Below are positions 1,922 through 63,666 of a DNA stretch of 64,000 bases, piece after piece (the stretch's first letter is position 1; every line of letters starts with the position of its first letter). This DNA is from Crambe crambe (lineage: Eukaryota; Porifera; Demospongiae; Poecilosclerida; Crambeidae), in assembly GCA_963924555.1 (NCBI GenBank), contig OZ004593.1:2972480-3036479 (forward strand), written 5' to 3'. A program made the position numbers and the translations under genes. The notes under the pieces are model-generated. The model was not told the DNA's origin. It searched no databases and saw only the letters and a list, made by a program, of their open reading frames with translations.

Positions 1922-3415
1922 ATGCTAAAGGTAAGAGACTAGCTAATACTTAACTATTGCAAGTCACCCCTTAGCTACTCAGTAATGGCTATTGTAGACT
2001 CTTTCTCAAATAAGCTAAAAGATACCTTTGTTTTGCTGTGTGTGCACATTTTGGAGAAAAAATATAACCACAGCATCATCAGCTGCACCTAAGTCATTAT
2101 CACTGTCTTTAATTATTAGGAGCACAAGTTCAAAACACTACTTTTGAGCATCTTCCTTCCTCTTGTCTTATCCCAAGGTATGCCATCTAACTCTACTGGT
2201 ATAGAGAGACAGTCATGTACGTATAAGGTGCAGTGATTTTAGCATGATGGTAGGAATAATGAAGTTGACTCCCAATCATGCAAACATGCTGTATGTATAT
2301 TTCTCTTCTTGTCCCATGCATGCATTTACATGCAGTTTCAGTAATCTTTCCAGAATCCTATACATTTTATAATGGTAATTCACTGACAATAAATGGATCA
2401 TCTCCTACTGGAAACTGTTCCAACAGTAGCATATCTTACCATGAGGGAAACAGACTAATAACCTGTCTGCAACCAAATTCCAGTGTTCTGTTTGATTGGG
2501 ATGTCCCCACACTTGCTGGACTAGACGGTGACATGTGGGCAAGTCAATTACTCACAATACAATCAATAAACAAACGTGTTGATATCAGATCAACTTTTTC
2601 ATTTAATGTAACAGTTGAAAGGATTGAGGTGTTGATATTCAACTGTTCAACGATATTGAGTCGAAATATCACCCTCGAACTCTTTGGAGGACCTAATGCT
2701 ACGAGGTATATAACTACAAAGCATTTGGGATCTGTTACTTCCTGTGACTCCCTTGTGAGAGTGTGCATATCAGTCAATACTTCAGATTTACAAGAGATTT
2801 TAATGAGATTTACCTCTAACAATGACTACTGGCTGTACCTTGCTGAGGTGATCTTCTACAGTCATAATTCTACCTGTTCACCAGACGCCATCATTAATTC
2901 GACTACACTACTACCACCAGACACAACAAGTCCACCAGATACTACTGCACACCTACAACAAGATACGAGTTCGCCAGATACCACGTCACCAGTTGAACCA
3001 TCAGTGAATGGAACTACAAGTACATGTCCCTCAAGTAACCATTGGTAGTAGTAAGTAGCTACATATAGTTTATTAGTCTCTGAACAATAATGATACACTG
3101 ATGCACTGCATGTTATTGATAACTGCAGGTGTAACATTCCAAACTGCCATTTTCTTATCTGTCATCATCACCGCCCTTGTCACAGCTCTACTGGCCACAG
3201 TCATCTTTGTGGTGGTGCTGGTTGTCATATGCAAGTGCCACCCAAAGTTCAGACCTGGAGGGACTGAAACGGGAGCCTCTGAAGTGATGGGTGGGGATGT
3301 GGGAGGTGTGGTTGTGAGAGGTGGCAATGATCCCACGTACATGGAGGTTGGTGGAGAAGAGAAAGGCCACACCTTTGAACTGAAGGAGAATGATGCATAT
3401 GGCACTCTCTCCTAA
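1922..3415 (+). CDS. R1: type-A paired-type receptor (unassigned ectodomain, TM, short Tyr tail)
   Basis: Four exons: 1922-1930 (MLK), 2120-2177 (EHKFK plus a Leu/Ile-rich signal core ending LSQ), 2336-about 3034, and 3129-3415. The last donor is the uncertain point. The donor position used by R4/R5 (GTAAGT at 3051) is preceded by an in-frame TAG at 3046-3048, whereas GTAACC at 3035 restores phase 1 and gives about 350 aa. The ectodomain has six Cys, about ten N-x-S/T sites and a Thr/Pro-rich stalk. The TM helix follows TFQTAIF, then KCHPKF and a tail with TYMEV and C-terminal AYGTLS, whose tyrosines are 20 residues apart. A frame starting at ATG 2278 is misleading because it lies in intron 2. 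The fold is unassigned. The EVIFYS strand before the last Cys recalls galactose-binding-like domains, but that is a guess. Confidence 0.75.
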
Positions 3416-3573
3416 AATTAATATTTACAGTCAAATGCAAACTCAATTCAATTAGCTACACAAACAGAATGTGTCCATAGTTTTATAGTTTATAAAAACT
3501 TACACATGCACATGCACTTGCTAATACCAATGCAATGTTCATAAATAAATAGTTTAATGGTAATGTGTTCTTT

Positions 3574-3579
3574 AATAAA
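3574..3579 (+). promoter_or_regulatory. polyadenylation signal of R1
   Basis: AATAAA about 160 bp after the stop, with another at 3544-3549. The pair is conserved after R2, R4 and R5 (for example 17496-17501), which supports a shared 3' end for the type-A genes. Confidence 0.5.
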
Positions 3580-3951
3580 CAACATGTGCAGATTGTGTCT
3601 GAGCGATCTGTGTTTTAACAGTTGTCATTGTCATGGTGGTATGTTTACTTGGTGATTAGAAGATGGCTTACAGGTACAGCTGTGTAATTACACTACATGG
3701 GGTAGCTACAGGCTGTGCATTTCATGTTGCCCACACACTGTAGTAGAACCATGATAGAACAATGGTGTGGATATATATATGATTGGTTGATCTTATTACA
3801 CCATTTCCATTAGTGTAAAGTGCATCTTCATTTTTATTTAAGAACGGGATCTTTCAGGACTAAAAACCGAGATCACTTAGCTAAGTATTCCAATGTGTAC
3901 TACTTCACATTTATCACAACTTGACTTTAATGCACACACAATTACTCCCTT

Positions 3952-4500
3952 GTGCATAGTTACAGCTGGTCTGGCTCAGGAGGAGTGTCTTCCTTTTTCT
4001 TACCCACTTGCAAATATAGCTGGTCTGGCTCAAGCAGTGAACTGTCTTTATTCTTCTTCACTTGTGTATACAGCTGGTCTGGCTTGTGGGGTTGAGTGTC
4101 TTCCTCTTTTTTCATCATCAACATAATTCTTCTTTTTCTCTTCTTGTCCACTTGAGCATATAATGCAGAAGCAGAAACCTCTTCTCGTTGGTCAGTAGCA
4201 AAGATGTCTCCACTTTCCTTTTATGGTTTCTTTACATCCTCATCGACTTGAGCATACAAGAGTGGGTCTTTCATACCTTCTACACCAACTTCCTTGGAGA
4301 CTTGAGGTTGATGTAGGACACAGTCCCACCTCTGCCTCATTTTGTTCCACAGTAGCCCCTTGGGAAGACTTGGTCCCTCCCCTCACTAGACCTGTGTCTC
4401 GTTCAAGGCGGTTGTAGAGTTGATCTGCTGGGACGTCTTCTCCTTGAATGTCAAGTATTGAGGAGTAGAATGCGTGTCCTGTACTGCTCTTAAATCTGAC
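3952..4500 (-). pseudogene. relic 2 of a type-B receptor tail
   Basis: On the minus strand from about 4497 the sequence encodes FYSSILDIQGED, DQLYNRLERDTG, GGTKSS and EAEVG of the B tail. It then loses about 30 bases and the frame, and recovers through DPLLYAQVDE and ALYAQVDKK to DQLYTQV and DQLYLQV, ending in a stop where DQLY is expected (about 3957). Directly above it (about 4500-4760) lies the receptor 5' flank, so the signal exons, ectodomain and TM helix are missing by a clean internal deletion. It is convergent with R1 and unlikely to be expressed as a receptor. Confidence 0.7.
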
Positions 4501-6560: not shown

Positions 6561-8456
6561 ATGCTAAAGGTAAGACTGGCTAATACTTTAACTATTGCAA
6601 GTCACCCCTTAGCTAGTCAGCAAAGGCTATGTAGACTCTTTCTCTAATAAGCTAAAAGATACCTTTGTTTTGCTGTGTGTGCATATTTTGGGGGAAAAAT
6701 ATAACCACAGCATCATCAGCTGCACCTAAGTCATTATCACTGTCTTTAATTATTAGGAGCACAAGTTCAAAACACTTCTTTTGAGCATCTTCCTTCCTCT
6801 TGTCTTATCCCAAGGTATGCCATCAAACTCTACTGGTATAGAGAGACAGTCATGTACGTATAAGGTGCAGTGATTTTAGCATGATGGTAGGAATAATGAA
6901 GTAGACTCCCACATAGTTGCCAACCGTCCCGATTTGGCCGGGACACTCACGATATTATACCTCTTGTCCCGGTCCCGCCCGACATAGTGCTTTAACAATG
7001 ACTTGTCCCGACAGATAGAGCTACAAGGTAGTCTCGCCGGCCAAGGAAAGAATCGAGTCTGCCCCGCGGACTAGTCATTATATTATAAATGCACGCTCAG
7101 CACACATCATGTGATCTGAAGTTATAAACAAATGACATCATGAAATCCAGCGTGGCTTATTTTTCAGTGTGAATACCCATTATAACTTAGATCTACTTAC
7201 TTAGATTAATACGTTTAATCAAAATGGGCGTGTTTAATAAAAAAGTAGGCGTGGTCTAGAAAATGTTCGCGCGCGCCTATCTGTCCCTATATTCCATTTC
7301 CAAAAGTTGGCAACTATGCTCCCAATCATGCAAACATGCTGTATGTATATTTCTCTTCTTGTCCCATGCATGCATTTACATGCAGTTTCAGTAATCTTTC
7401 CAGAATCCTATACATTTTACAATGGTAATTCAATGACAATAAATGGATCATCTCCTACTGGAAACTGTTCCAACAGCAACTTACCTGACAGTGATGGACT
7501 AATAATAACCTGTCAGCAACCAAATTCCAGTGTTCTGTTTGATTGGCGTGTCCCCACACTTGCTGGACTAGACGGTGACATGTGGGCAAGTCAACTACTC
7601 CTGATACGATCAATAGTTGGACGTGTTCAAATCAGATCAGCTTTTGCATATAATGTAATGATCGAAAGGGTTGAGGTGTTGATGTTTACCTGTTCAATAG
7701 TGAGTCGAAATATCACCCTCGAACTCTTTGGAGGACCTATGACTACAAGGTATATAACTACAAAGCATTTGGGATCTGTTACTTCCTGTGACTCCCTTGT
7801 GAGAGTGTGCATATCAGTCAATACTTCAGATTTACAAGAGATTATAATGAGATTTACCTCTAACAATAACTTTTGGCTGTACCTTGCTGAGGTGATCTTC
7901 TACAGTCGTAATTCTACCTGTTCACCAGACGCCATCATTAATTCGACTACACTACTACTACCAGACACAACAAGTCCACCAGATACTACTGCACACCTAC
8001 AACAAGATACGAGTTCGCCAGATACCACGTCACCAGTTGAACCATCAGTGAATGGAATTACAAGTACATGTCCCTCAAATAACCATTGGTAGTAGTAAGT
8101 AGCTATGTATAGTTTATTAGTCTCTGAACAATAATGATACAATGATGCACTGTATGTTATTGATAACTGCAGGTGTAACATTCCAAACTGCCATTTTCTT
8201 ATCTGTCATCATCACCGCCCTTGTCACAGCTCTACTGGCCACAGTCATCTTTGTGGTGGTGGTTGTCATATGCAAGTGCCACCCAAAGTTCAGACCTGGA
8301 GGGACTGAAACGGGAGCCTCTGAAGTGATGGGTGGGGATGTGGGAGGTGTGGTTGTGAGAGGTGGCAATGATCCCACGTACATGGAGGTTGGTGGAGAAG
8401 AAAAAGGCCACACCTTTGAACTGAAGGAGAATGATGCATATGGCACTCTCTCCTAA
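6561..8456 (+). CDS. R2: type-A receptor, membrane exon possibly uncoupled
   Basis: Exons 6561-6569 (MLK), 6757-6814 (signal core), 7386-about 8094 and 8173-8456. Intron 2 carries a 407-bp inserted element. The ectodomain differs from R1 mainly in the loop after GNCS (NLPDSDGLI) and in IVGRVQIRSAFAYN. As in R1, a TAG (8090-8092) lies two bases before the usual GTAAGT donor, but here the rescuing GTAACC donor is lost (ATAACC). Reading through gives a secreted product of about 257 aa. A weak GTACAT donor at 8064 would keep phase 1 and join the TM/tail exon (TYMEV, AYGTLS). The TM exon is intact, one codon shorter than in R1. The gene could encode a soluble form, a membrane form through the weak donor, or be decaying. 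Confidence 0.6.
6912..7318. mobile_element. 407-bp MITE-like element in intron 2 of R2
   Basis: It is absent from the matching place in R1 and R3. It begins CATAGTTGCCAAC and ends GTTGGCAACTATG, a perfect 13-bp terminal inverted repeat. It is flanked by a CTCCCA duplication (6906-6911 and 7319-7324) that occurs once in the uninterrupted copies. The inside is CG-richer than its surroundings and has no convincing coding frame, so it is a non-autonomous DNA transposon. It ends a few bases before an ATG that is only intronic. Confidence 0.85.
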
Positions 8457-9478: not shown

Positions 9479-10225
9479 ATGGAGTTATTGACACACTATG
9501 TGCTCATTTGTGAGAGTTCTTCCATGAGGAGGTGTGACTTGAGAGGTAGTGGAGGAGCTCTAGGTTTATTAACTACAACCCTGACTCCTGTGGAGACATC
9601 TCCTCAGTCTTCTCTTTCTCTTCTCCATACAGCTGGTCTATGTAGCTCAGGGGGTGGACTGTCCCTTTTCTTCTTCTTTTCCCTTGTGCATAGTTACTGG
9701 TCTGGCTCAGGAGGAGTGTCTTCCTTTTTCTTACCCACTTGCAAATATAGCTGGTCAGTGAACTGTCTTTATTCTTCTTCACTTGTGCATACAGCTGGTC
9801 TGGCTTGTGGGGTTGAGTGTCTTCCTCTTTTTTCATCATCAACATATTCTTCTTTTTCTCTTCTTGTCCACTTGAGCATATAATGCAGAAGCAGAAACCT
9901 CTTCTCGTTGGTCAGTAGCAAAGATGTCTCCACTTTCCTTTTATGGTTTCTTTACATCCTCATCAACTTGAGCATACAAGAGTGGGTCTTTCATACCTTC
10001 TGCACCAACTTCCTTGGAGACTTGAGGTTGATGTAGGACACAGTCTCACCTCTGCCTCATTTTGTTCCACAGTAGCCCCCTGGGAAGACTTGGTCCCTCC
10101 CCTCACCCTGGACCTGTGTCTCGTTCAAGGCGGTTGTAGACTTGATCTGCTGGGACGTCTTCTCCTTGAATGTCAAGTATTGAGGAGTAGAATGTGTGTC
10201 CTGTACTGCTCTTAAATCTGACTGG
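9479..10225 (-). pseudogene. relic 3 of a type-B receptor tail
   Basis: On the minus strand it matches the R3 tail from the DIQGED/VYN(R)LERDTG region to the very C-terminus (SHLLMEEL), with LYAQV-type motifs between. It has frame breaks in the EAEVG region, a stop replacing a tyrosine in one DQLY repeat and a damaged YSV motif. As in relic 2, the receptor 5' flank follows directly on the upstream side, with no signal exons, ectodomain or TM helix. About 98% of it aligns by eye with relic 2 where both exist, so one is a duplicate of the other. Confidence 0.7.
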
Positions 10226-12281: not shown

Positions 12282-14903
12282 ATGCTAAAGGTAGGACTAG
12301 CTAATACTTTAACTATTGCAAGTCACCCCTTAGCTAGTCAGCAAAGGCTATGTAGACTCTTTCTCTAATAAGCTAAAAGATACCTTTGTTTTGCTGTGTG
12401 TGCATATTTTGGGGAAAAAATATAACCACAGCATCATCAGCTGCACCTAAGTCATTATCACTGTCTTTAATTATTAGGAGCACAAGTTCAAAACACTTCT
12501 TTTGAGCATCTTCCTTCCTCTTGTCTTATCCCAAGGTATGCCATCAAACTCAACTGGTATAGAGAGACAGTCATGTACGTATAAGGTGCAGTGATTTTAG
12601 CATGATGGTAGGAATAATGAAGTTGACTCCCAATCATGCAAACATGCTGTATGTATATTTCTCTTCTTGTCCCATGCATGCATTTACATGCAGTTTCAGT
12701 AATCTTTCCAGAATCCTATACATTTTACAATGGTAATTCAATGACAATAAATGGATCATCTCCTACTGGAAACTGTTCCAACAGTAGCATATCTTACCAT
12801 GAGGGAAACAGACTAATAACCTGTCTGCAACCAAATTCCAGTGTTCTGTTTGATTGGGATGTCCCCACACTTGCTGGACTAGATGGTGACATGTGGGCAA
12901 GTCAATTACTCACAATACAATCAATAAACAAACGTGTTGATATCAGATCAATTTTTTCATTTAATGTAACAGTTGAAAGGATTGAGGTGTTGTTATTTAA
13001 CTGTTCAATGATATTGAGTCGAAATATCACCCTCGAACTCTTTGGAGGACCTAACACTACGAGGTATATAACTACAAAGCATTTGGGATCTGTTACTTCC
13101 TGTGGCTCCCTTGTGAGAGTGTGCATATCAGTCAATACTTCAGATTTACGAGAGATTTTAATGAGATTTACCTCTAACAGAGACTACTGGCTGTACCTTG
13201 CTGAGGTGATCTTCTACAGTCGTAATTCTACCTGTTCACCAGATGCCATCTTTAATTCAACTACACTACTACCACCAGATACAAGTTCACCAGATACCAC
13301 GTCACCAGTTGAACCATCAGTGAATGCAACACCAGTTACAACAAGTTCACCAGATACCATGTCACGAGTCGAACCATCAGTGAATGCAACACCAGTTACA
13401 ACAAGTTCACCAGATACCACGTCACCAGTGGAACCATCAGTGAATGCAACACCAGTTACAACAAGTTCACCAGATACCACGTCACCAGTGGAACCATCAG
13501 TGAATGCAACACCAGTTACAACAAGTTCACCAGATACCACGTCACCAGTGGAACCATCAATGAATGCAACACAAGCAGCTACAACACCACCAACCTCTGG
13601 CAATGTCATCATAGCAGTAGTGGTCCCTCTCTCTATTGTCCTCATTATTGTTATGATTGTAGTTGTCCTGATCCTCTGCATAGTCTGTACCACTAAACAC
13701 AAGCACCAACTCAGAGCCAAGGAAAACCACACAACCACTCACACACAAATACACAGCCATCAACCTCCACAAGACAAAGGACACCTCAACCTGTTCGAGG
13801 AGACAGGACAAGCATGCTACTCCTCACTACACGACATTCAAGGAGAAGACATCCCAGCGAATCAAGTCTACAACCACCTTGAACGAGACACAGGCCCAGT
13901 GAGAGGAGGGACCAAGTCTTCATGGGAGGACCAAAATGAGGCAGAGGTGGGAGCATACTCTACTGTATCCTACAGCAAACAACCTCAAGCCTCCAAGGAA
14001 GTTGGTGTGAAGGGTATGGATGATCCACTCTTGTATGCTCTAGTTGATGAGAGTGTGAAAAAGAAAAGTGAAGACATCTTTGCTACTGACCAACAAGAAG
14101 AGGCTTCTGCATTATATGCTCAAGTGAATGAGGAGAAGAAGAGGAAGAAAAAGAAGAAGAAAAAGATGAAAAAAGAGGAACCACATGAGCCAGACCAGCT
14201 GTATACACAAGTGGAAAAGAAGACGAAAAAGGACAGTCCACCCCCTGAGCAAGATCAGCTGTATGCACAAGTGGAAAAGAAGAAGAAAAAGAAAAGGGAC
14301 AGTCCACCCCCTGAGCCAGACCAGCTGTATGCACAAGTGGAAAAGAAGAAAAAGGACAGTGCACCCCCTGAGCAAGACCAGCTGTATGCGCATGTTGAAA
14401 AGAAGAAGAAAAAGGACAGTGCACCCCCTGAGCAAGACCAGCTGTATGCGCATGTTGAAAAGAAGAAGAAAAAGGACAGTCCACCCCCTGAGCAAGACCA
14501 GCTGTATGCGCATGTTGAAAAGAAGAAGAAAAAGGACAGTGCACCCCCTGAGCAAGACCAGCTGTATGCGCATGTTGAAAAGAAGAAGAAAAAGGACAGT
14601 CCACCCCCTGAGCAAGACCAGCTGTATGCGCATGTTGAAAAGAAGAAGAAAAAGGACAGTGCACCCCCTGAGCAAGACCAGCTGTATGCGCATGTTGAAA
14701 AGAAGAAGAAAAAGGACAGTCCACCCCCTGAGCCAGACCAGCTGTATGCGCAAGTGGACAAGAAGAAGAGGAAGAAGAGAGAGAAAGAAGAGACTGAGGA
14801 GGTACCTCCACGGGAGTCAGGGGACATGTACTCTGTAATTAATAAACGTAATGCTCCTCCAGTACCTCTCAAGTCACACCTCCTCATGAAAGAACTCCAG
14901 TGA
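12282..14903 (+). CDS. R3: type-B receptor with 16 Yxx(L/V/I) tail motifs
   Basis: Three exons: 12282-12290 (MLK, donor GTAGGA), 12478-12535 (signal core) and 12694-14903, giving about 758 aa. The ectodomain is almost the same as in R1 (six Cys, many N-glycosylation sites). A Ser/Thr/Pro stalk follows, built of 20-residue repeats (SPDTTSPVEPSVNATPVTTS), then a TM helix after SGNVIIAVVV. The tail of about 390 residues holds YSSL, VYNHL, AYSTV and LYALV, then LYAQV-type motifs, six of them LYAHV, each in a Lys-rich, PPPE-containing 20-residue unit, and ends with MYSVI. Such YxxV/L sites resemble SH2-docking ITIM-like motifs, but the residue at -2 is Q rather than the usual I/V/L/S, so true ITIM function is inference. 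Large antisense frames over the repeats are artefacts of the 60-bp period. Confidence 0.8.
13270..13566 (+). repeat. 60-bp coding minisatellite in the R3 stalk
   Basis: Four nearly perfect 60-bp units (13321-13560) plus a partial first one encode the Thr/Ser/Pro-rich stalk. Each brings an N-A-T glycosylation site and Ser/Thr for O-glycans. R6 retains only one unit at this place, so stalk length varies between paralogues. Confidence 0.9.
14187..14790 (+). repeat. 60-bp coding minisatellite of tyrosine motifs in the R3 tail
   Basis: Seven units of exactly 60 bp at 14341-14760, preceded by diverged units of 60-75 bp. Each encodes one DQLY(A/T)(Q/H)V motif, a lysine run and D-S-(A/P)-P-P-E. The A/P position mostly alternates from unit to unit (A,A,P,A,P,A,P), which suggests growth by 120-bp dimers. 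R6 has only a few units, so docking-site number is evolving through repeat copy number. Confidence 0.9.
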
Positions 14904-15985: not shown

Positions 15986-18900
15986 ATGTTAAAGGTAAGA
16001 TTGGCTAATACTTTAACTATTGCAAGTCACTCACCCTGTAGCTAATAAATAAAGGCTATGTATAGACTCTTTTCAAATAAGCTGAAAAGCCATCATCAGC
16101 TGCACCTAAATCATTATCACTGTCTTTAATTATTAGGAGCACAATTTCAAAACACTCCTTTTGAGCATCTTCCTTCCTCTTATCTCATCTCAAGGTATGC
16201 CATCAAACTCTACTGGTAACATGTATAAGGTCCAGCGATTCTAGCATGATGGTAAGAATAATGAAGTTGATTCCCAATCATGCAAACATGATGTGTGTAG
16301 CTATAATGTTTCTCTTCTTGTCCTATGCATACATTTATAGCTCCAGTAATCTTTCCAGAATACTATACATTTAGCAATAATAATTCAATGACAGTGAATG
16401 GATCATCTCCTACTGGAAACTGTTCCGACAGTCACTTACATGGCACACTAGTAACCTGTGTGCAACCAAATTCCAGTGTTCTGTTTGATTGGAGTGTCCC
16501 CACATTAACTGGACTAGATGGTGACAAGTGGGCAAGTCAACTACTCACAATACAATCAATAGATGGACGCATTGACATCAGATCAACTTTTGCATTTAAT
16601 GTAACAATTGAAAGGGTTGAGTTGTTGATATTTAACTGTTCAAAAATATCGAGTCAAAATATCACCCTCGAACTCTTTGGAGGACCTATGACTACAAGGT
16701 ATATAACTACAAAGCATTTGGGATCTGTTACTTCCTGTGACTCCCTTGTGAGAGTGTGCATATCAGTCAATACTTCAGATTTACGAGAGATTTTAATGAG
16801 ATTTACCTCTAACAAAGACTACTGGCTGTACCTTGCTGAGGTGATCTTCTACAGTCATAGTTCTACCTGTTTACCAGACGCCATCTTTCTACTATCACTA
16901 AATACAAGTTCACCAGATACCACTGCACCAGTTGAACCATCAGTGAATGCAACTAGAAGTACAAGTCCCTCTGAATCATCACCAATAACCATTGGTTGTA
17001 GTAAGTAGTTATGTAGGCATATAGTTTATCAGTCTCTGAATAATAATGATACAATGATGCACTGTATGTTATTGATAACTGCAGGTGTAACATTCCAAAC
17101 TGCCATCTTGTTATCTGTCATCATCACTGCCCTCGTCACAGCTCTACTGGCTACAGTCATCTTTGTGGTAGTGCAGGTTATCATATGCAAGTGCCACCCA
17201 AAGTTCAGATCTAGAGGAACTGAGACGGGAGCCTCAGCAGGAGGGGAAGGGCAGGAATATGAAGTGATGGGTGGGGATGAGGGAGGTGTGGTTGCGAGAT
17301 GTGGCAATGATTCCACATACATGGAGGTTGGTGGAGAAGAAAAAGGCCACACCTTTGAACTGAAGGAGAATGATGCATATGGCACTCTCTCCTAAATATT
17401 TATGCAAACTCAGTTCAATCATGTAAACAGAGTGTGTCCATAGTTTTACTATAGTACTTACACATGCACTTCCTAACACCAATGCAATGTTCATAAATAA
17501 ACAGTTTAATGGTAATGTGTTCTTTAATAAACGATATGTGCAGATTGTGTCTGAGTGATCTGTGTTTTAACAGTTGTCATTGTCATGGTGGTATTAAATG
17601 GAGTATTAGTGACCCGATTTTCTCCGCTGTTTTGGTTAATGGCTAATTGACGTAGACCTTAGTCTGGTATGTCTACTTGGTGATTAGAAGATATCTTAGA
17701 GGTACAGCTGTGTAATTACGCTACATGGGGTAGCTATACAGGCTGTGCATTTCATGTCGCCCACACACTGTAGTAGAACCATGCATGGTAGAACAATGGT
17801 GTGGGTATATAAAGCTTCTATATGATTGGTTGATCTTATCACACCATTTCCATTAGTGTAAAGTGCATCTTCATTTTCAAGATCTTTCAGGACTAAAAAC
17901 CAAGATCACTTAGCTAAGTATTCCAATGTGTACTACTTCACAGTTATCACAACTTGTCTTTAATGCACAACACAATTAGCTACTCAGTGTAATTGAATGG
18001 AATGGTGAGATGAAACTTGGTCACACGCTGCATACTTATCTATGATAATTTTAGCTAGCCTCATACTATCGATAGCGCTGATTTTGTATAGTACAAGCTT
18101 AATTAGTTGGAACAAATAGCAAAAGGCACGCCTGGAAGTAGTGCTAGAGCAGATCGCAACAATTTTAATGTCATAGCTGCAGCCAGTAAGTCAGTACGCT
18201 GATCTTATTATGAACAAACTAGTCAATTTTAGACATCGTTTGTTAGCAAATGAATTTTAGATTTTTGAACATTCTTCTCTCTACTGTGTAGATGTAATGA
18301 TTCACTGTAGCCTTCTGAGAACCTATAGAGTAAGGGTAGAAGAGAAAGAAGAGTTTTTAGTTTTGTAGGGATCCAGGGGGTCCAGACCCCCCTTTTTAAA
18401 TTTTGAAGTTGCATTTGTTGACAAGTTGTTAGCTAATAGGTTTATAATGCAGCACAAAAGGCGATTATTCATTATTTACTATTAATATTCATTTTGTGTT
18501 GTTCTATAAAGGGATTCAATTTTTTGCTTCCACAGGAGGGGTATGTTGGACCCCTCCCTTTCAAAATTGCTGAATCTGCCCCTGCATAGCATAATGGTGT
18601 GTTATTTATGTAGCTGGCTAACCATTCAAATTGCATGCCTTCTAGTTGTGCTCATCAGTGACTGCACGGCTAGCTACACAGACATTCTTCTTCATAAGTG
18701 TTCTTTTAAAGTGACCAATCAATGAAATTCACTTGCAGGTGCTACTATTAATTAAAAACGTTCTTCTTCTCTGCAGACTGTATCTGCTAGTCTGTGCTCA
18801 TGTGAGACGCACAGTGGCCCCGCTTCCTGTTAACCTTACTTAAACTAGAGCATGTTGATCATGCTGTCCACAGCTCCAGAAAACACCCTCCCACTGGATG

Positions 18901-21290
18901 CTAGGACACAAGTCATACTGCCTTCATGTCTAGCCAAGATCTGAGCACAGTTCATCAATTCCATGTTCCATATCTGCATAATCGTAGCAATAAATTTTTT
19001 ATATAACTACGTAGTGTAGTCTCTAATCAGGAGCACTTTTTCTAGTCACATTTATTGAGGAGTTTTTCTGCATGTAGATAAAGCTCAGAACTTACGTATC
19101 AGAGAGAGTTGCAATTCCTTTGAGATTATGTATATCCCATACCTACGACATGAAAAATCAAACCTAGTGTGCTATACTATAGCCATGCACACATTATAGG
19201 AGGTATACAGGAAAGAGTAGGGGCCATGGCCATCCCTGCCACCCCACTTCATATGCAGTGGTCCTTGAGATTTCTAGCTAATTGAGATACCAGAAGTGAA
19301 GCTGTATGCATGGAAAACAGTGCAATAGTTGGTAGTGGTCATCACTTCAATAAACTTGTTTCTTTAGAGCATGCCTTTTATACATGCTGAAGAGATGAAG
19401 CCCATGCAATAGCTAGCTGCCCTTAGGTAGCTTAATTGCAAAGGATGGATGTAAGTGCCCCCCCCCCCCTAGTGGTTCACTTACTATCTGCAGCCACCCT
19501 TCATCCTTCATCCCTACCCTTGTTTCCTTAGCTACATTCTTGAGCAATGGTCATCCCTACATCTATTTTCATTTCACGGAAATATTATTTCCCTCTGGAA
19601 TATACATTAACTAAGTGATCTCATAGTAGCTACTGAAGACTTCTAGTTATATTAATATTATACCAGTTCTGTTTCACACTTCTAACATCAATCATATCAT
19701 ATTAGTACCCTGTATCATACTTTCACTCAAGTATATACAGTTGGAGGGCTTTGCATACATGTATATATAAATCGAGCATGTATAAAGTTTTCAAGACTGA
19801 GCTGAATAAAGGAATACAGTAGTTAACATCATTGATCCCTTGACCCTGCTAATTGTTTTCCCTTCATAACATTCCATAGCTAATTGGAATGATCCTCATT
19901 ATGCTCAAATTTTTGCTCATGATTCTACTCCAGAAGAGGTACAATATGTAGTTTGTCACTATGACAGTGACTGTTCAAATGGAGTGGCCATTCCTTACCA
20001 CACTGCAGAAACAGAAACGTTATTTTGATAAACATACCTTGTATAGGTAGCTAAGACTAATCATCATTAAAATAATCCAACAGTTTGTTATATTCACCAA
20101 AAATAATTATAGTGTCATTTTGGCAGATTTCAATGATTAACCTAACTAGCTAGCTAGCTTGCTAAACAATTTCATTTTGCAGTTCCAGTGCACAAGTGCT
20201 TCTTCTTGTAAGGCTAACAAGCTATAGCTATAACCATCACAGCTGCAATAATTATTTCAGCTGTGTCATTTTTCTGCTAGCTGCATTTTTTCCTGCTAGC
20301 TGTGGCTATTATAAAGTTCTGAATGTCATAATAATAATTATGCTACGTATTTTGGGTACTTTACAGCAGAATCAATGAGACAACAAGAAACAAAAAAGAA
20401 AGGTGTGGCTAGTTCTGTACAAGCAAACTCAAAGCTACATGAAGTCATAGCGACACAGTACCCTTGTCATACCTCCTTTGATTCTATTCTCAGACTCTCA
20501 CTCAAGTCCCTATTATTCTTTTCAACTATATTCATACACAATCTGTCATTATACACACAGCTTTATATTAAGTAAATACAATAGTTGTTTCACTGATCCA
20601 AAGTACAAAGTTTATTTTGAATCCAATTGGCATGTGTATTCTATCATTATTTAAAGTATGATTAGAAAAGGTTGATAGCACATTGTATGGAGCATGAGGT
20701 GTGTAGAAGCTAGTTACATTTTTTTTTTGAAGAAAACTAGAGAAAAGTCTACAGTGACTTCATTAACCAACTTGTGTGATTCTTCAAAGTTTATGCACAT
20801 CTGCTGATATTCCATCAGCAATGTTAATCTTTCCTTAATTAAGATTCTGCCTAAGTATATTATTGAAACTGATTATCTGCCTGATCTGACCTCTCAAAAT
20901 TTATAAGTAACTATGTAATTATCTGGCCTGACCAAATAGAATTTTTTTTCTGACGAATCAACTAGTTATATACAGGACATTACACCCTTGCATGAACAGT
21001 AATGTTTTGTCAGTTACTGAGCTTGCTTTTTTGCGAATAAAGCTATTCTTAAGAGGTTCCTTTTTATGTTAGCTGAACATATACCAATCTACGTAGCTAT
21101 CTGAGTATAGTATGTGATAAGCAGTTCAATATTATATGGACCAATCAGAGTACTCTGGTTAATGGCACAGTTAGCTATAGCTATATTATGTGCACCCCGG
21201 AGATCCAGGCTATAATATGCTACATGGATAAATCAAGAATTTGAGTGTTACTATCATACTCACATACCTTAATTTTTTTACAGATCAGTA
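15731..21290 (+). repeat. 5.56-kb tandem unit 1 (contains R4)
   Basis: It runs from the GGAGATGAAATCC block to the same block of the next copy. Unit 2 (21291-26864) follows head to tail and is nearly identical along its whole length, non-coding spacer included, with only scattered substitutions and small indels (for example the C-tract near 19460, altered in unit 2). This marks a recent duplication. Confidence 0.85.
15986..17395 (+). CDS. R4: type-A paired-type receptor
   Basis: Exons 15986-15994 (MLK), 16137-16194 (EHNFK plus signal core ending SSQ), 16341-17000 and 17085-17395; about 345 aa. Every junction is GT-AG and phase 1, and the frame is continuous, so this is the clearest type-A model. 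The ectodomain belongs to a second sequence clade (EYYTFSNNNSMTVNGSS, short loop SHLHGTLVT). The TM exon starts VTFQTAI, and the tail has a longer Gly/Glu-rich linker (SAGGEGQEYEVMGG) that adds an EYEV motif before TYMEV and AYGTLS. Tandem AG acceptors six bases apart (CTCCAG) before VIFP make the exact mature start ambiguous by two residues. Confidence 0.85.
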
Positions 21291-21547
21291 ATGGAGACGA
21301 AATCCACCATGGACACATGGAAAAGGTGACTGCATGAGCATGATGGCTGGAATTAAACTCATGAAAGGAACCACTGCACCTGTTATTAGCCAAAACGGAA
21401 ACTGGAAGCAAACATAACTACTTACCAATCATAACATTCCATGATTAACTATACAGTTTTATATAGACAGCAGAATCTAATAGCTAAAAGACTTGGTTTT
21501 CTGAAGTCTGACTAACAGTAAAATTCTATACAGTGTGAAACTACACA
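17396..21547. other. 4.1-kb spacer R4 to R5
   Basis: No coding region is supported; short frames near 18229-18414, 18543-18725 and 20196-20575 show no domain or splice logic. It holds the A-type 3' flank (AATAAA 17496-17501), a segment near 18360-18590 with opposed GGGGGTCCAGACCCCC-like and GGACCCCTCC ends that may be a degraded MITE, and an inverted copy of the 5580-5810 repeat at about 18840-19060. R5's 5' flank starts at 21291. Confidence 0.45.
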
Positions 21548-24500
21548 ATGCTAATGGTAAGACTGGCTAATACTTTAACTATACTGCAAATCACTCACCC
21601 TGTAGCTAATAAGTAAAGGCTATGTAGACTCTTTTCAAATAAGCTGAAAAGCCATCATCAGCTGCACCTAAATCATTATCACTGTCTAATTATTAGGAGC
21701 ACAATTTCAAAACACTCCTTTTGAGCATCTTCCTTCCTCTTATCTCATCTCAAGGTATGCCATCAAACTCTACTGGTAACATGTATAAGGTCCAGTGATT
21801 CTAGCATGATGATAGGAATAATGAAGTTGACTCCCAATCATGCAAACATGATGTGTGTAGCTATAATGTTTCTCTTCTTGTCCCATGCATGCATTTACAG
21901 CTCCAGTAATCTTTCCAGAATACTATACATTTAGCAATAATAATTCAATGACAGTGAATGGATCATCTCCTACTGGAAACTGTTCCGACAGTCACTTACA
22001 TGGCACACTAGTAACCTGTGTGCAACCAAATTCCAGTGTTCTGTTTGATTGGAGTGTCCCCACATTAACTGGACTAGATGGTGACATGTGGGCAAGTCAA
22101 CTACTCACAATACAATCAATAGATGGACGCATTGACATCAGATCAACTTTTGCATTTAATGTAATAATTGAAAGGATTGAGTTGTTGATATTTAACTGTT
22201 CAAAAATATCGAGTCAAAATATCACCCTCGAACTCTTTGGAGGACCTGCAACTAAAAGGTATATAACTACAAAGCATTTGGGATCTGTTACTTCCTGTGA
22301 CTCCCTTGTGAGAGTGTGCATATCAGTCAATACTTCAGATTTACGAGAGATTTTAATGAGATTTACCTCTAACAAAGACTACTGGCTGTACCTTGCTGAG
22401 GTGATCTTCTACAGTCGTAATTCTACCTGTTTACCAGACGCCATCATTATTTTGACTACACTACTACCACCAGTTACAAGTTCACCAGATACCATTGCAC
22501 CACTACCACCAGATACAAGTTCACCAGATACCACTGCACCAGTTGAACCACCAATAATCATTGGTAGTAGTAAGTAGTTATGTAGGCATATAGTTTATCA
22601 GTCTCTGAACAATAATGATACGCTGATGCACTGTACAGGTGTAACATTCCAAACTGCCATCTTGTTATCTGTCATCATCACTGCCCTCGTCACAGCTCTA
22701 CTGGCTACAGTCATCTTTGTGGTAGTGCAGGTTATCATATGCAAGTGCCACCTAAAGTTCAGATCTAGAGGAACTGAGACGGGAGCCTCAGCAGGAGGGG
22801 AAGGGCAGGAATATGAAGTGATGGGTGGGGATGAGGGAGGTGTGGTTGCGAGATGTGGCAATGATTCCACATACATGGAGGTTGGTGGAGAAGAAAAAGG
22901 CCACACCTTTGAACTGAAGGAGAATGATGCATATGGCACTCTCTCCTAAATATTTACGCAAACTCAGTTCAATCACGTAAACAGAGTGTGTCCATAGTTT
23001 TACTATAGTACTTACACATGCACATGCACTTCCTAACACCAATGCAATGTTCATAAATAAACAGTTTAATGGTAATGTGTTCTTTAATAAACAATATGTG
23101 CAGATTGTGTCTGAGTGATCTGTGTTTTAACAGTTGTCATTGTCATGGTGGTATTAAATGGAGTATTAGTGACCCGATTTTCTCCGCTGTTTTGGTTAAT
23201 GGCTAATTGACGTAGACCTTAGTCTGGTATGTCTACTTGGTGATTAGAAGATATCTTAGAGGTACAGCTGTGTAATTACGCTACATGGGGTAGCTATACA
23301 GGCTGTGCATTTCATGTCGCCCACACACTGTAGTAGAACCATGCATGGTAGAACAATGGTGTGGGTATATAAAGCTTCTATATGATTGGTTGATCTTATC
23401 ACACCATTTCCATTAGTGTAAAGTGCATCTTCATTTTCAAGATCTTTCAGGACTAAAAACCAAGATCACTTAGCTAAGTATTCCAATGTGTACTACTTCA
23501 CAGTTATCACAACTTGTCTTTAATGCACACACAATTAGCTACTCAGTGTAATTGAATGGAATGGTGAGATGAAACTTGGTCACACGCTGCATACTTATCT
23601 ATGATAATTTTAGCTAGCCTCATACTATCGATAGCGCTGATTTTGTATAGTACAAGCTTAATTAGTTGGAACAAAAAGCAAAAGGCACGCCTGGAAGTAG
23701 TGCTAGAGCAGATCACAACAATTTCAATGTCATAGCTGCAGCCAGTAAGTCAGTACGCTGATCTTATTATGAACAAACTAGTCAATTTTAGACATCGTTT
23801 GTTAGCAAATGAATTTTAGATTTTTGAACATTCTTCTCTCTACTGTGTAGATGTAATGATTCACTGTAGCCTTCTGAGAACCTATAGAGTAAGGGTAAAA
23901 GAGAAAGAAGAGTTTTTAGTTTTGTAGGGATCCAGGGGGTCCAGACCCCCCTTTTTAAATTTTGAAGTTGCATTTGTTGACAAGTTGTTAGCTAATAGGT
24001 TTATAATGCAGCACAAAAGGCGATTATTCATTATTTACTATTAATATTCATTTTGTGTTGTTCTATAAAGGGATTCAATTTTTTGCTTCCACAGGAGGGG
24101 TATGTTGGACCCCTCCCTTTCAAAATTGCTGAATCTGCCCCTGCATAGCATAATGGTGTGTTATTTATGTAGCTGGCTAACCATTCAAATTGCATGCCTT
24201 CTAGTTGTGCTCATCAGTGACTGCACGGCTAGCTACACAGACATTCTTCTTCATAAGTGTTCTTTTAAAGTGACCAACCAATGAAATTCACTTGCAGGTG
24301 CTACTATTAATTAAAAACGTTCTTCTTCTCTGCAGACTGTATCTGCTAGTCTGTGCTCATGTGAGACGCACAGTGGCCCCGCTTCCTGTTAACCTCACTT
24401 AAACTAGAGCATGTTGATCATGCTGTCCACAGCTCCAGAAAACACCCTCCCACTGGATGCTAGGACACAAGTCATACTGCCTTCATGTCTAGCCAAGATC

Positions 24501-26864
24501 TGAGCACAGTTCATCAATTCCATGTTCCATATCTGCATAATCGTAACAATAAATTTTTTATATAGCTACGTAGTGTAGTCTCTAATCAGGAGCACTTTTT
24601 CTAGTCACATTTATTGAGGAGTTTTTCTGCATGTAGATAAAGCTCAGAACTTACGTATCAGAGAGAGTTGCAATTCCTTTGAGATTATGTATATCCCATA
24701 CCTACGACATGAAAAATCAAACCTAGTGTGCTATACTATAGCCATGCACACATTATAGGAGGTATACAGGAAAGAGTAGGGGCCATGGCCATCCCTGCCA
24801 CCCCACTTCATATGCAGTGGTCCTTGAGATTTCTAGCTAATTGAGATACCAGAAGTGAAGCTGTATGCATGGAAAACAGTGCAATAGTTGGTAGTGGTCA
24901 TCACTTCAATAAACTTGTTTCTTTAGAGCATGCCTTTTATACATGCTGAAGAGATGAAGCCCATGCAATAGCTAGCTGCCCTTAGGTAGCTTAATCACAA
25001 AGGATGGAACTGAAAGAATGTACGTACGATAATAGTGCCCTCCCTAGTGGCTCACTTACTATGTGCAGCCACCCTTCATCCTTCATCCCTACCCTTGTTT
25101 CCTTAGCTACATTCTTGAGCAATGGTCATCCCTACATCTATTTTCATTTCACGGAAATATTATTTCCCTCTGGAATATACATTAACTAAGTGATCTCATA
25201 GTAGCTACTGAAGACTTCTAGTTATATTAATATTATACCAGTTCTGTTTCACACTTCTAACATCAATCATATCATATTAGTACCCTGTATCATACTTTCA
25301 CTCAAGTATATACAGTTGGAGGGCTTTGCATACATGTATATATAAATCGAGCATGTATAAAGTTTTCAAGACTGAGCTGAATAAAGGAATACAGTAGTTA
25401 ACATCATTGATCCCTTGACCCTGCTAATTGTTTTCCCTTCATAACATTCCATAGCTAATTGGAATGGTCCTCATTATGCTCAAATTTTTGCTCATGATTC
25501 TACTCCAGAAGAGGTACAATATGTAGTTAGTCACTATGACAGTGACTGTTCAAATGGAGTGGCCATTCCTTACCACACTGCAGAAACAGAAACGTTATTT
25601 TGATAAACATACCTTGTATAGGTAGCTAAGACTAATCATCATTAAAATAATCCAACAGTTTGTTATATTCACCAAAAATAATTATAGTGTCATTTTGGCA
25701 GATTTCAATGATTAACCTAACTAGCTAGCTAGCTTGCTAAACAATTTCATTTTGCAGTTCCAGTGCACAAGTGCTTCTTCTTGTAAGGCTAACAAGCTAT
25801 AGCTATAACCATCACAGCTGCAATAATTATTTCAGCTGTGTCATTTTTCTGCTAGCTGCATTTTTTCCTGCTAGCTGTGGCTATTATAAAGTTCTGAATG
25901 TCATAATAATAATTATGCTACGTATTTTGGGTACTTTACAGCAGAATCAATGAGACAACAAGAAACAAAAAAGAAAGGTGTGGCTAGTTCTGTACAAGCA
26001 AACTCAAAGCTACATGAAGTCATAGCGACACAGTACCCTTGTCATACCTCCTTTGATTCTATTCTCAGACTCTCACTCAAGTCCCTATTATTCTTTTCAA
26101 CTATATTCATACACAATCTGTCATTATACACACAGCTTTATATTAAGTAAATACAATAGTTGTTTCACTGATCCAAAGTACAAAGTTTATTTTGAATCCA
26201 ATTGGCATGTGTATTCTATCATTATTTAAAGTATGATTAGAAAAGGTTGATAGCACATTGTATAGAGCATGAGGTGTGTAGAAGCTAGTTACATTTTTTT
26301 TTGAAGAAAACTAGAGAAAAGTCTACAGTGACTTCATTAACCAACTTGTGTGATTCTTTCAAAGTTTATGCACATCTGCTGATATTCCATCAGCAATGTT
26401 AATCTTTCCTTAATTAAGATTCTGCCTAAGTATATTATTGAAACTGATTATCTGCCTGATCTGACCTCTCAAAATTTATAAGTAACTATGTAATTATCTG
26501 GCCTGACCAAATAGAATTTTTTTTCTGACGAATCAACTAGTTATACAGGACATTACACCCTTGCATGAACAGTAATTTTTTGTCAGTTACTGAGCTTGCT
26601 TTTTTGCGAATAAAGCTATTCTTAAGAGGTTCCTTTTTATGTTAGCTGAACATATACCAATCTACGTAGCTATCTGAGTATAGTATGTGATAAGCAGTCC
26701 AATATTATATGGACCAATCAGAGTACTCTGGTTAATGGCACAGTTAGCTATAGCTATATTATGAGCACCCCGGAGATCCAGGCTATAATATGCTACATGG
26801 ATAAATCAAGAATTTGAGTGTTACTATCATACTCACATACCTTAATTTTTTTACAGATCAGTAA
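21291..26864 (+). repeat. 5.57-kb tandem unit 2 (contains R5)
   Basis: Head-to-tail copy of 15731-21290 at an offset of about 5560-5575. R6 begins in the start of a third unit that diverges after the ectodomain. Confidence 0.85.
21548..22949 (+). CDS. R5: type-A paired-type receptor
   Basis: Exons 21548-21556 (MLM), 21697-21754, 21901-22569 and 22639-22949; about 348 aa with continuous phase-1 joins. It is a close copy of R4. Differences include GGPATKRY for GGPMTTRY and an expanded stalk (PVTSSPDTIAPLPPDTSSPDTTAPVEPP). Intron 3 is shortened to 69 bp through loss of the TTATTGATAACTGC stretch, leaving ACAG as acceptor. The tail again carries EYEV, TYMEV and AYGTLS. Confidence 0.85.
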
Positions 26865-27120
26865 TGGAGATGAAATCCACCATGGACACATGGAAAAGGT
26901 GACTGCATGAGCATGATGGCTGGAATTAAACTCATGAAAGGAACCACTGCACCTGTTATTAGCCAAAACGGAAACTGGAAGCAAACATAACTACTTACCA
27001 ATCATAACATTCCATGATTAACTATACAGTTTTATATAGACAGCAGAATCTAATAGCTAAAAGACTTGGTTTTCTGAAGTCTGACTAGCAGTAAAACTCT
27101 ATACAGTGTGAAACTACACA
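22950..27120. other. 4.2-kb spacer R5 to R6
   Basis: Near-identical duplicate of 17396-21547, with the same 3' flank, repeat segments and promoter block (from about 26864). No gene is seen. Confidence 0.45.
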
Positions 27121-28764
27121 ATGCTAAAGGTAAGACTGGCTAATACTTTAACTATACTGCAAATCACTCACCCTGTAGCTAATAAGTAAAGGCTATGTAG
27201 ACTCTTTTCAAATAAGCTGAAAAGCCATCATCAGCTGCACCTAAATCATTATCACTGTCTAATTATTAGGAGCACAATTTCAAAACACTCCTTTTGAGCA
27301 TCTTCCTTCCTCTTATCTCATCTCAAGGTATGCCATCAAACTCTACTGGTAACATGTATAAGGTCCAGTGATTCTAGCATGATGGTAGGAATAATGAAGT
27401 TGACTCCCAATCATGCAAACATGATGTGTGTATAATGTTTCTCTTCTTGTCCCATGCATGCATTTACAGATCCAGTAATCTTTCCAGAATACTATACATT
27501 TAGCAATAATAATTCAATGACAGTGAATGGATCATCTCCTACTGGAAACTGTTCCAACAGTCACTTACATGGCACACTAGTAACCTGTGTGCAACCAAAT
27601 TCCAGTGTTCTGTTTGATCGGAGTGTCCCCACATTAACTGGACTAGATGGTGACATGTGGGCAAGTCAACTACTCACAATACAATCAATAGATGGACGCA
27701 TTGACATCAGATCAACTTTTGCATTTAATGTAACAATTGAAAGGGTTGAGTTGTTGATATTTAACTGTTCAAAAATATCGAGTCGCAATATCACCCTCGA
27801 ACTCTTTGGAGGACCTATGACTACAAGGTACATAACTACAAAGCATTTGGGATCTGTTACTACCTGTGACTCCCTTGTGAGAGTGTGCATATCAGTCAAT
27901 ACTTCAGATTTACGAGAGATTTTAATGAGATTTACCTCTAACAAAGACTACTGGTTGTACCTTGCTGAGGTGATCTTCTACAGTCGTAATTCTACCTGTT
28001 CACCAGACACCATCTTTAATTCAACTACACTACTACCACCAGTTACAACAAGTTCACCAAATACCACGTCACCAGTGGAACCATCAATGAATGCAACACA
28101 AGCAGCTACAACACCACCAACCTCTAGCAATGTCATCATAGCAGTAGTGATTCCTCTCTCTATTGTCCTCATTATTGTTATGATTATAGTTGTCCTGGTC
28201 CTCTGCATAGTCTGTACCATTACATATAAGCATCAACTCAGAGACAAGGAGGACCACACAACCACCCACAGACATGCACACAACCATCAACCACAACAAG
28301 AAAGAGGACACATCAACCTGTGTGAGGAGACAGGACGTGCAGTCTACTCTTCAATACACGACATTCAAGGAGAAGATGCCCCAACAGATCAAATCTACAA
28401 CCGCCTTCAACAAGACACAGGTCCAGTGAAAGGAGGGACCAAGTCTTCCTGGGGGGCTACTGTGGACCAAAATGGGGCAGAGGTTGGAGCATACTCTACT
28501 GTGTCCTACAGCAAACAACCTCAAGCCTCCAAGGAAGCTGGTGTAGAGGGCATGGAAGATCCACTCTTACATTTGTATGCTCAAGTGGATGAAGATGTAA
28601 AGAAATCAATAAAGAAAAGTGAAGACATCTTTGCTACTGACCAACAAGAAGAGGCTTCTGCTTCTGCATTATATGCTCAAGTGGATAAGAAGAGAAAGAA
28701 GAAGAAGAAAGAGGAAGACACTCCACTTCATGAGCCAGACCAGCTGTATGCACAAGTGGACTAA
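27121..28764 (+). CDS. R6: type-B receptor with clade-2 ectodomain and 6 Tyr motifs
   Basis: Exons 27121-27129 (MLK), 27270-27327 and 27470-28764; about 453 aa. The ectodomain is of the R4/R5 clade, but after the Cys of STCSPD the exon continues without a donor into a short stalk (one SPNTTSPVEPSMNAT unit), the B-type TM helix (NVIIAVVIPLSIVLII) and a B tail with VYSSI, IYNRL, AYSTV, LYAQV, LYAQV and LYAQV, ending just after DQLYAQVD. Compared with R3 it lacks the expanded repeats and the C-terminal MYSVI region. It is therefore a hybrid of the R4/R5 front half and an R3-like back half. Confidence 0.85.

Positions 28765-32752: not shown

Positions 32753-63666
<30,914 letters not shown>

Follow-up and report, generated by a model that had tools for sequence, protein, structure and literature searches.

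KIR, LILR and SIRP are paired receptors of vertebrates, and to our knowledge it is still an open question which receptors sponges use for self/non-self and for microbes. Gene conversion has been reported for Siglec-11/16, and CEACAM proteins are also described as paired receptors, as far as the accounts drawn on here extend. The consulted portions of two reports on the fester co-receptors (FcoR) of Botryllus and on Hydractinia Alr assign ITIM, hemITAM or core YxxI/L/V motifs to the FcoR tails (PMC12065747, PMC11999971). For the DDR family of receptor kinases, the part of PMC8662651 used here places the emergence in Bilateria.

The locus examined here lies in a window of 64,000 nucleotides, the whole stretch of Crambe crambe DNA that was analysed, and contains six genes (R1-R6) that an earlier note had described as paired-type receptors of an early-branching animal; a silicatein-like exon in the genome, as in a demosponge, agrees with that placement. 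We give a probability of roughly one half to the reading that these genes belong to a family of type I receptors in which one variable ectodomain is carried on exchangeable tails, in the manner of paired receptors, with outputs that include receptor tyrosine kinases.

Six genes with two tail modules

The six ectodomain exons lie on the forward strand (starts 2336, 7386, 12694, 16341, 21901 and 27470), each with an exon 1 ATG and an exon 2 signal (MLKEHKFKTLLLSIFLPLVLSQ-type, judged by eye). Tail A lies behind R1, R2, R4 and R5, and tail B behind R3 and R6. The features, in window coordinates, are as follows.

1922..1930, + strand: R1 exon 1, signal peptide start (ATGCTAAAG/gtaaga)
2120..2177, + strand: R1 exon 2, signal peptide (EHKFKTLLLSIFLPLVLSQ), phase 1 end
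2336..3048, + strand: R1 exon 3, six-Cys ectodomain and Thr/Pro stalk; TAG closes the frame before a GTAAGT donor
3129..3415, + strand: R1 tail A exon, with TM helix, CKCHPKF and tyrosines YMEV and YGTL
4074..4488 (C16:2976553-2976967), - strand: detached, inverted tail-B fragments 3' of R1
6561..6814, + strand: R2 exons 1 (6561-6569) and 2 (6757-6814)
7386..8092, + strand: R2 exon 3, ectodomain and stalk; frame closed ahead of the donor, like R1
8173..8456, + strand: R2 tail A exon
9827..10210 (C16:2982306-2982689), - strand: detached, inverted tail-B fragment with stops, 3' of R2
12282..12535, + strand: R3 exons 1 (12282-12290) and 2 (12478-12535)
12694..14903, + strand: R3 exon 3, one open frame with ectodomain, repeated stalk, TM and long tail B
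15986..16194, + strand: R4 exons 1 (15986-15994) and 2 (16137-16194)
16341..17000, + strand: R4 exon 3, ectodomain and stalk; donor TGTA/GTAAGT, phase 1
17085..17395, + strand: R4 tail A exon; three tyrosines, YEVM, YMEV and YGTL
21548..21754, + strand: R5 exons 1 (21548-21556) and 2 (21697-21754)
21901..22569, + strand: R5 exon 3, ectodomain and stalk; donor AGTA/GTAAGT
22639..22949, + strand: R5 tail A exon
27121..27327, + strand: R6 exons 1 (27121-27129) and 2 (27270-27327)
27470..28764, + strand: R6 exon 3, one open frame with ectodomain, stalk, TM and truncated tail B

The proposed six-copy array with common signal exons and a six-Cys ectodomain was thus borne out, all six copies having exons 1 and 2. 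A genome search with R1 as query gave 151 matches; the other five copies are among them, all with an E no higher than 4.6e-95, so their likeness is far above chance.

The joining of ectodomain to membrane module, also part of the earlier description, holds for the B-type genes R3 and R6, in which ectodomain, TM and tail lie within a single open frame, and is possible by a clean splice to tail A in R4 and R5, but R1 and R2 lack a strong donor for an in-frame join. In these two genes there is a frameshift at the exon end, and the GTAAGT donor of the R4/R5 type is positioned 3' of an in-frame stop; their products may be secreted rather than membrane receptors, or R1 may use another, weak donor. 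A strong donor and a join that stays in frame occur in 29 of the 45 A-type genes examined, and in 28 of these the join is in phase 1; when the intervening DNA was shuffled, the corresponding means were 2.7 (maximum 6) and 1.1 (maximum 4).

The claim that the two modules are unrelated was confirmed, as the R4 tail matches part of the R3 tail only at a BLASTP E of 1.7. Tail A is short, with CKCHPKF adjoining the membrane, and its description as a two-motif tail fits R1 and R2, which have two tyrosines, but not most relatives, in which three are conserved. It is found on many further contigs with its tyrosines retained, many of these relatives being about 50-60% identical. Tail B contains many YxxV sites followed by a C-terminal YSVVN...PxxPxK block. 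The long multi-tyrosine form described for it is seen in R3 (16 YxxV/L/I sites, with YSVIN and PPVPLK at the C-terminus) but not in R6, whose tail is truncated after LYAQVD and lacks the C-terminal block. At least 19 B-type relatives (P0001-P0019) were found in a scoring that covered the 8000 candidates with most words in common; YSV[VI]N is kept in 16 of the 19, and of the four relatives whose contigs are not attributed to Crambe crambe, three retain it. In a hybrid, P0101, tail B continues into the end of a tail A; a complete copy was not found in the Crambe crambe assembly, where the best match is 89% over residues 1-329, and it may represent another haplotype or an assembly error.

None of the six window tails carries a canonical ITAM, and the same scan gave one ITIM-type match each in R3, R4 and R5. 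Because of this, opposing outputs of the two tails are a guess, and an opposite ITAM/ITIM polarity finds no support in the sequence.

Exchange of tails between close ectodomains is visible at the DNA level. R5 (A) and R6 (B) are nearly identical over 1.7 kb of upstream DNA and ectodomain and then unrelated, as are R1 (A) and R3 (B) after 1.4 kb, with breakpoints in the stalk region; ectodomain DNA identity reaches 97.3% for R1/R3 and 97.8% for R4/R6, each pair on tails A and B. Among 80 labelled ectodomains, 34 have a nearest neighbour with a different tail (41.7 when labels are shuffled), and the ectodomain tree contains 22 tail-label changes, its starred branches requiring a minimum of 8 for A and 5 for B. 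A paired-type architecture, in which close ectodomains bear different tails, is supported by the predicted gene structures.

A genome-wide family on one ectodomain

With R1 as the query, the genome contains at least 150 ectodomain matches, of which 112 are near-full-length: 53 are followed by tail A, 31 by tail B and 28 by neither. Behind nine of these 28 lies a tyrosine kinase. The nine pairs are located at 5.73-6.05 Mb of contig C16, their linkage resting on proximity and strand (within 1.0-1.64 kb, same strand). The kinase motifs VAVK, HRD and DFG are present, and the Pfam model PK_Tyr_Ser-Thr matches at E 5.4e-15 (L048) and 1.7e-6 (L049). The kinase of L059, the sole one searched against PDB, gave DDR1 as its best match (270 bits), followed by DDR2 (266) and TrkB (235). 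A strong in-frame donor occurs at two of the seven kinase loci tested (L049 and L050) and at L043, which carries a further tail (tail C) that is neither A, B nor kinase. Since the nine kinases and L043 come in addition to A and B, there are at least three tail types and probably four. The proposed two-module system consequently stands as one ectodomain family on exchangeable modules, but a simple A/B system is unsupported, because the same ectodomain also precedes DDR-like kinases and L043.

The cysteines are strongly conserved: in 102 near-full-length ectodomains, cysteine occupies three columns in 102/102, one in 101/102, one in 84/102 and a sixth in 81 of the 90 rows that are filled there. 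No Pfam model was found for the ectodomain. No Ig model appears among the Pfam matches of 87 members or those of 10 further proteins, which is compatible with the claim that the domain is not Ig, and no match to the F5/8 type C (discoidin) models PF00754 and PF22633 is listed for the ectodomains, such domains being rare in this genome (2 matches per search). By eye, the ectodomain segment WVHLAEVTFY has what we take to be a resemblance to discoidin ends. An ectodomain profile against PDB returned four distinct arginase sequences (best E 1.2), which are not credible, and a second profile gave two chains (best E 0.28), again nothing credible. Sub-cut-off Pfam matches to TMEM154, ECSCR and Endomucin fall on the stalk/TM/tail stretch and were rejected. 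NCBIfam and PADLOC yielded nothing useful, none of 63 pattern matches on prokaryote contigs was confirmed, and a match to an ordinary secreted family was looked for by sequence and not found. Titles and abstract beginnings among the literature matches listed do not describe this ectodomain family. R1-R6 are best read as members of a large demosponge family of likely type I receptors at the cell surface, apparently one that has not been described before.

Selection, possible signalling and competing explanations

In the main clusters, the ectodomains change fast while the tails are conserved. For the same 21 A genes, pN/pS is 0.88 in the ectodomain and 0.30 in the tail (tail bootstrap 0.18-0.48), and for the same 17 B genes 0.88 and 0.46 (tail bootstrap 0.34-0.62). 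The contrast is weaker in the window B genes (0.79 vs 0.63), on C21 (0.77 vs 0.61) and in the far part of C16 (0.59 vs 0.52). In the three larger sets the ectodomain pN/pS averages less than 1 and the codon-bootstrap ranges extend across 1, so the fast change may reflect relaxed constraint. Synonymous divergence (pS) of tail and ectodomain is 0.134 vs 0.131 in the 21 A genes and 0.138 vs 0.163 in the 17 B genes.

These patterns suggest a recognition system in which one kind of signal is read in several ways. The ectodomain would bind a varied ligand, either self/non-self surface molecules or microbes; clustering would allow kinase-bearing relatives or Src-type kinases to phosphorylate both tails, A and B; the phosphorylated tails would then be read by SH2 proteins, such as the SHP2-like product of this genome or the tandem-SH2 proteins; and for one kind of binding the output would depend on the tail. 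The genome encodes an SH2-SH2-phosphatase (SHP2-like), whose SH2 part matches PTPN11 best and whose phosphatase segment scores higher against PTPRS (149 bits) and LAR (148 bits), each with two phosphatase domains summed, than against PTPN11 (122). If true, the family would illustrate how receptors with the same ectodomain can switch between outputs with and without a kinase. A bolder version, which we offer tentatively, is a sponge self/non-self complex derived from receptor tyrosine kinases instead of Ig receptors, in which a rapidly diversifying non-Ig ectodomain moves among kinase, docking-tail and short-tail outputs, with gene content varying between haplotypes and a paired logic that arose independently in sponges.

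A possible though doubtful alternative is that tails A and B belong to co-receptors, scaffolds or decoys of DDR-like kinase paralogues that sense matrix or growth signals and recognise neither self nor microbes. The nine tyrosine kinases share the ectodomain and the locus, the one tested is closest to DDR, nearest-neighbour ectodomains are up to 92.7% (A-K) and 93.9% (B-K) identical in DNA, and sponges have DDR orthologues according to the portion of PMC6485061 consulted. However, more than 100 copies with an ectodomain pN/pS of about 0.9 in the main clusters exceed what a fixed matrix ligand would need, and the ectodomain has no recognisable discoidin domain.

It is unlikely that the array is an allorecognition complex whose haplotypes are hyperpolymorphic and vary in their set of genes, an idea with which the fast-changing ectodomains and conserved tails of the main clusters would agree. 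Contig 270639 has two genes 98.5-99.5% identical to two neighbouring assembly genes, and the ectodomains of the other eleven genes are 74-91% identical to the nearest here, the contigs being taken as the same species; the divergent contigs may be a second haplotype but could also come from a sister species, and because the comparison covered 105 of the 112 near-full-length ectodomains, some true partners may have escaped it.

Less likely again is a birth-and-death family under relaxed constraint, with decaying copies, neutral ectodomains and recently homogenised tails: pseudogene fragments, inverted pieces and stops are present, R1, R2 and R6 show damage towards their 3' ends and the ectodomain bootstraps include 1, but 102 of 105 near-full-length ectodomains are stop-free, 73 of the 76 tails tested behind stop-free ectodomains are open, the three tail A tyrosines persist in most relatives, many of which are about 50-60% identical, and homogenisation would also have lowered tail pS, which is close to that of the ectodomain.

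For the preferred reading, exchangeable tails on one variable ectodomain, the loci for testing are C16 at 2.93-3.00 and 5.38-6.07 Mb, C20 and C21.

Comparison with described receptor systems

The Eph receptors of sponges (PMC6485061) are likewise a sponge-expanded kinase family that gained its ligand-binding domain by shuffling; the present ectodomain has no Eph ligand-binding match, and the consulted part of that paper describes no kinase-less tail arrays. DDR1 and DDR2 resemble L059, the one kinase domain tested, but the sponge ectodomain matches no F5/8 type C domain or DDR structure by sequence and, unlike in DDR1/DDR2, most family members were found without a kinase, including R1-R6. The DDR label is further weakened by the bilaterian emergence given in PMC8662651, as far as its consulted text goes.

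Botryllus FcoR and Hydractinia Alr are, in the passages available to us (PMC12065747, PMC11999971), also large invertebrate families with variable ectodomains; theirs are Ig domains (FcoR also Sushi) in a chordate and a cnidarian, whereas the sponge family has a six-Cys domain common to kinases. The vertebrate paired receptors (KIR, LILR, SIRP, Siglec and CEACAM) likewise place near-identical ectodomains on different tyrosine-based tails and show gene-conversion-like mosaics. In contrast to them, the sponge family, judged from its predicted proteins, combines an ectodomain without an Ig match and tails without a canonical ITAM with an active-looking tyrosine kinase tail.

Gene structure of the window array

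The genome searched comprised 143.1 Mb in 119 contigs, with the window at C16:2972480-3036479; it also contains a silicatein-like exon (best PDB match silicatein alpha, E 1.9e-14), which points to a demosponge. The window holds the following features:

1922-28764, plus strand: six receptor genes, R1 to R6
279-599, plus strand: detached tail-B-like fragment beside an A-type gene
4074-4488 and 9827-10210, minus strand: two further such fragments, both inverted
33231-62895, minus strand: exons that, judged by eye from translations, resemble parts of at least one giant Ig/fibronectin-III receptor gene
towards 58-63 kb, minus strand: nidogen-like, SRCR-like and YWTD-like stretches, likewise by eye from translations
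60768-60927: perfect simple repeat, (TC)80

The array of six genes sharing signal exons and a six-cysteine ectodomain, as described in an earlier note, was confirmed on the plus strand. Each gene begins with two short signal exons, one of 9 bases and one of 58 bases ending in phase 1, followed by a third exon that encodes the ectodomain and then a Thr/Pro stalk; signal peptides and transmembrane (TM) helices were called by eye. The accompanying claim that the ectodomain is joined to a membrane and tail module is partly supported. In R3, the third exon continues through the TM helix into the long, multi-tyrosine tail B (758 codons open from the upstream stop), while R4 and R5 have a consensus donor, GTA|GTAAGT, that can make a phase 1 join to an exon with a different TM helix and the short tail A, across introns of 84 and 69 bases, respectively. 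The claim is doubtful for R1 and R2, where a small length change places a stop before the GTA|GTAAGT-type donor, so that their products would be either secreted or spliced by weak donors. The tail of R6 is shortened.

Splicing to tail A was assessed in the 45 A-type genes whose ectodomain is open and whose tail lies no more than 1.3 kb away. In 29, a donor of the form GTAAG or GTGAG could be joined in frame to an AG that precedes the TM or coincides with its start, and 28 of these joins were in phase 1; 60 rounds of shuffling the intervening DNA gave means of 2.7 joins and 1.1 in phase 1 (maxima 6 and 4). The remaining 16 genes, including R1 and R2, lacked a strong in-frame donor.

The ectodomain family, its tails and its kinase relatives

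A 184-residue ectodomain query returned at least 151 genome matches, a lower bound with 150 of 185 candidates scored, clustered on C16 (2.93-3.00 and 5.38-6.07 Mb), C21, C13 and C20, with a few on C1, C12 and C18. Tails A and B gave 91 and 45 matches. When each ectodomain was paired with the next tail on the same strand within 2.5 kb, 64 of 150 were assigned tail A, 40 tail B and 46 neither; for the 112 ectodomains longer than 480 bases, the figures were 53, 31 and 28. One of these 31, C16:5383775, has ten internal stops, and its B label is uncertain, since fragments of the two tails overlap there.

Of the 28 without either tail, nine have a tyrosine kinase 1.0-1.64 kb away on the same strand. 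Another, at C16:5716600-5718700 (L043), carries an additional kind of tail; its end, GPPPVPQKSDLLLEDL / PPVPQKSDLLLEDL, resembles the tail B C-terminus. Seven, on C21, each have another ectodomain 0.4-1.4 kb downstream and may be parts of multi-domain genes. At C21:881790-951190, tandem ectodomains 0.4-1.4 kb apart precede a single tail A, a possible arrangement for two- or three-ectodomain receptors. Tail A exons also occur at C12:1394400-1396650, C9:6963980-6966000 and C21:1809550-1811800 (L055-L057), where no six-Cys family ectodomain was found within about 2 kb; cysteine-rich open frames upstream of the C9 exon (L056) suggest that tail A may serve other kinds of ectodomain.

Among the kinase loci, two open frames (L048, L049) include the beginning of a kinase domain (PF07714, E 5.4e-15 and 1.7e-6), and a third (L059), of 305 residues, contains VAVK, HRD and DFG and best matches DDR1 (270 bits), DDR2 (266) and then TrkB (235). 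A passage in one paper describes DDR orthologues in sponges (PMC6485061) and one in another dates the family to Bilateria (PMC8662651); given this disagreement, "DDR-like" here denotes the nearest solved kinase, not an orthologue. A strong in-frame donor was present in two of seven kinase loci tested. Identity between the window ectodomain and those ahead of kinases at 5.73-5.76 Mb is 48-53%. The window receptors have no kinase themselves but would share a family with receptor kinases, the kinases being linked to their ectodomains by proximity; this is the main point beyond the earlier note.

Tail A as sole query retrieved 76 proteins, 54 of them on contigs outside those assigned to the same species, a status taken from identity alone. 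Of these, 52 are 70 residues or longer and carry a CKCHPKF-like motif; among them, tyrosines 1, 2 and 3 are kept in 49, 47 and 43, respectively, with 17 residues the commonest spacing between the first two. Fifteen of the 54 (11 of 48 contigs) lie on a contig equal in length to, and putatively the same as, that of one of the best 120 of 438 ectodomain matches, so that the pairing of ectodomain with tail A seems to exist beyond this genome; one of the 11, a length of 1,517 bases shared by different sources, is probably a coincidence. In tail B proteins, YSV[VI]N near the C-terminus is kept in 16 of 19 and PxxPxK in 17 of 19.

By our judgement, 53 proteins lie on same-species contigs, and 52 could be compared with 105 ectodomains: 16 were identical, 10 were 97-99.9% identical, 8 were 90-97% and 18 were below 90%. 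On contig 270639, two genes match adjacent genes here at 98.5-99.5% in both ectodomain and tail; the remaining eleven have ectodomains at 74-91%, with tails at 86-98% in ten and 64% in the hybrid P0101. This pattern fits haplotypes with differing gene content, although a sister species, or genes outside the 105 compared, may account for the divergent ectodomains.

Module exchange and selection

R5 (A) and R6 (B) are 96-100% identical in 100-base windows starting at 20700-22394 (three at 92-94%), with background identity beyond. Between R1 (A) and R3 (B), identity is 95-100% across the windows at about 1500-2890, and divergence begins in the stalk. The two A genes R1 and R2 share 94-100% where aligned outside the ectodomain and 80-92% at 2385-2735. 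A tree was computed for the 102 ectodomains free of stops, of which 47 carry tail A, 30 tail B and 9 a kinase and 16 are unlabelled; three with stops among the 105, and seven further near-full-length ectodomains, were left out. The tail labels need 22 changes on it, where shuffling gives 32.7 and the lowest possible number is 2. The tree was built by a quick method, with 20 of 99 inner branches strong and 39 weak; the strong branches force at least 8 changes for A and at least 5 for B. Nearest-neighbour ectodomains differ in label in 34 of 80 doubly labelled cases (41.7 in label shuffles). Together, the two comparisons suggest that tail and ectodomain are only weakly associated. P0101 is an open frame in which an ectodomain, a TM helix and the beginning of tail B are fused to a tail A C-terminus; its nearest gene in the assembly is 89% identical across residues 1-329.

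Nei-Gojobori pN/pS, ectodomain and tail from the same genes (pairs non-independent; gene conversion left in)
Set; ectodomain; tail
Main cluster, 21 A genes; 0.88; 0.30
17 B genes; 0.88; 0.46
Window, 9 ectodomains; 0.94; -
Window, four A genes (6 pairs); 1.30; 0.32
Window, five B genes (10 pairs); 0.79; 0.63
C21 (weak contrast); 0.77; 0.61
Far C16 cluster (contrast almost nil); 0.59; 0.52

Codon bootstraps spanned 0.65-1.37 (9 window), 0.68-1.14 (25 A-cluster) and 0.72-1.09 (17 B) for the ectodomain, and 0.18-0.48 (A), 0.34-0.62 (B) and 0.13-0.83 (4 window A) for the tail. Stretches with pN/pS above 1 lie mainly at residues 1-50 in the window set. In the A cluster they fall at about 16-35 and 121-155, and in the B cluster at about 16-35 and 106-155.

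Proposed signalling and candidate SH2 readers

Tail B of R3 contains 16 YxxV-type sites, against 2.8 in shuffles, and tail A has two or three tyrosines. Kinase paralogues or Src-type kinases would phosphorylate both tails, which SH2 proteins would then read. None of the six window tails contains a canonical ITAM, so an activating or inhibitory role is not assignable. No published description of this six-Cys receptor family was found among the papers listed by literature searches that cover few subscription journals.

An array of small tandem SH2 proteins lies at C5:1468041-1522148 (L123) and C5:2058002-2059380 (L126), the two domains often about 420 bp apart and some proteins starting SNVYAKG; these are possible readers of the YxxV tails. 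On C18, a gene at 6539084-6540942 (within L124, C18:6538700-6541500) encodes a phosphatase domain preceded by two SH2 matches. It resembles SHP2 in its SH2 part, the second SH2 region best matching PTPN11 (197 bits over two stretches). For its phosphatase segment, the two-domain receptor phosphatases PTPRS (149 bits) and LAR (148 bits), with both of their domains added together in each score, rank above PTPN11 (122 bits).
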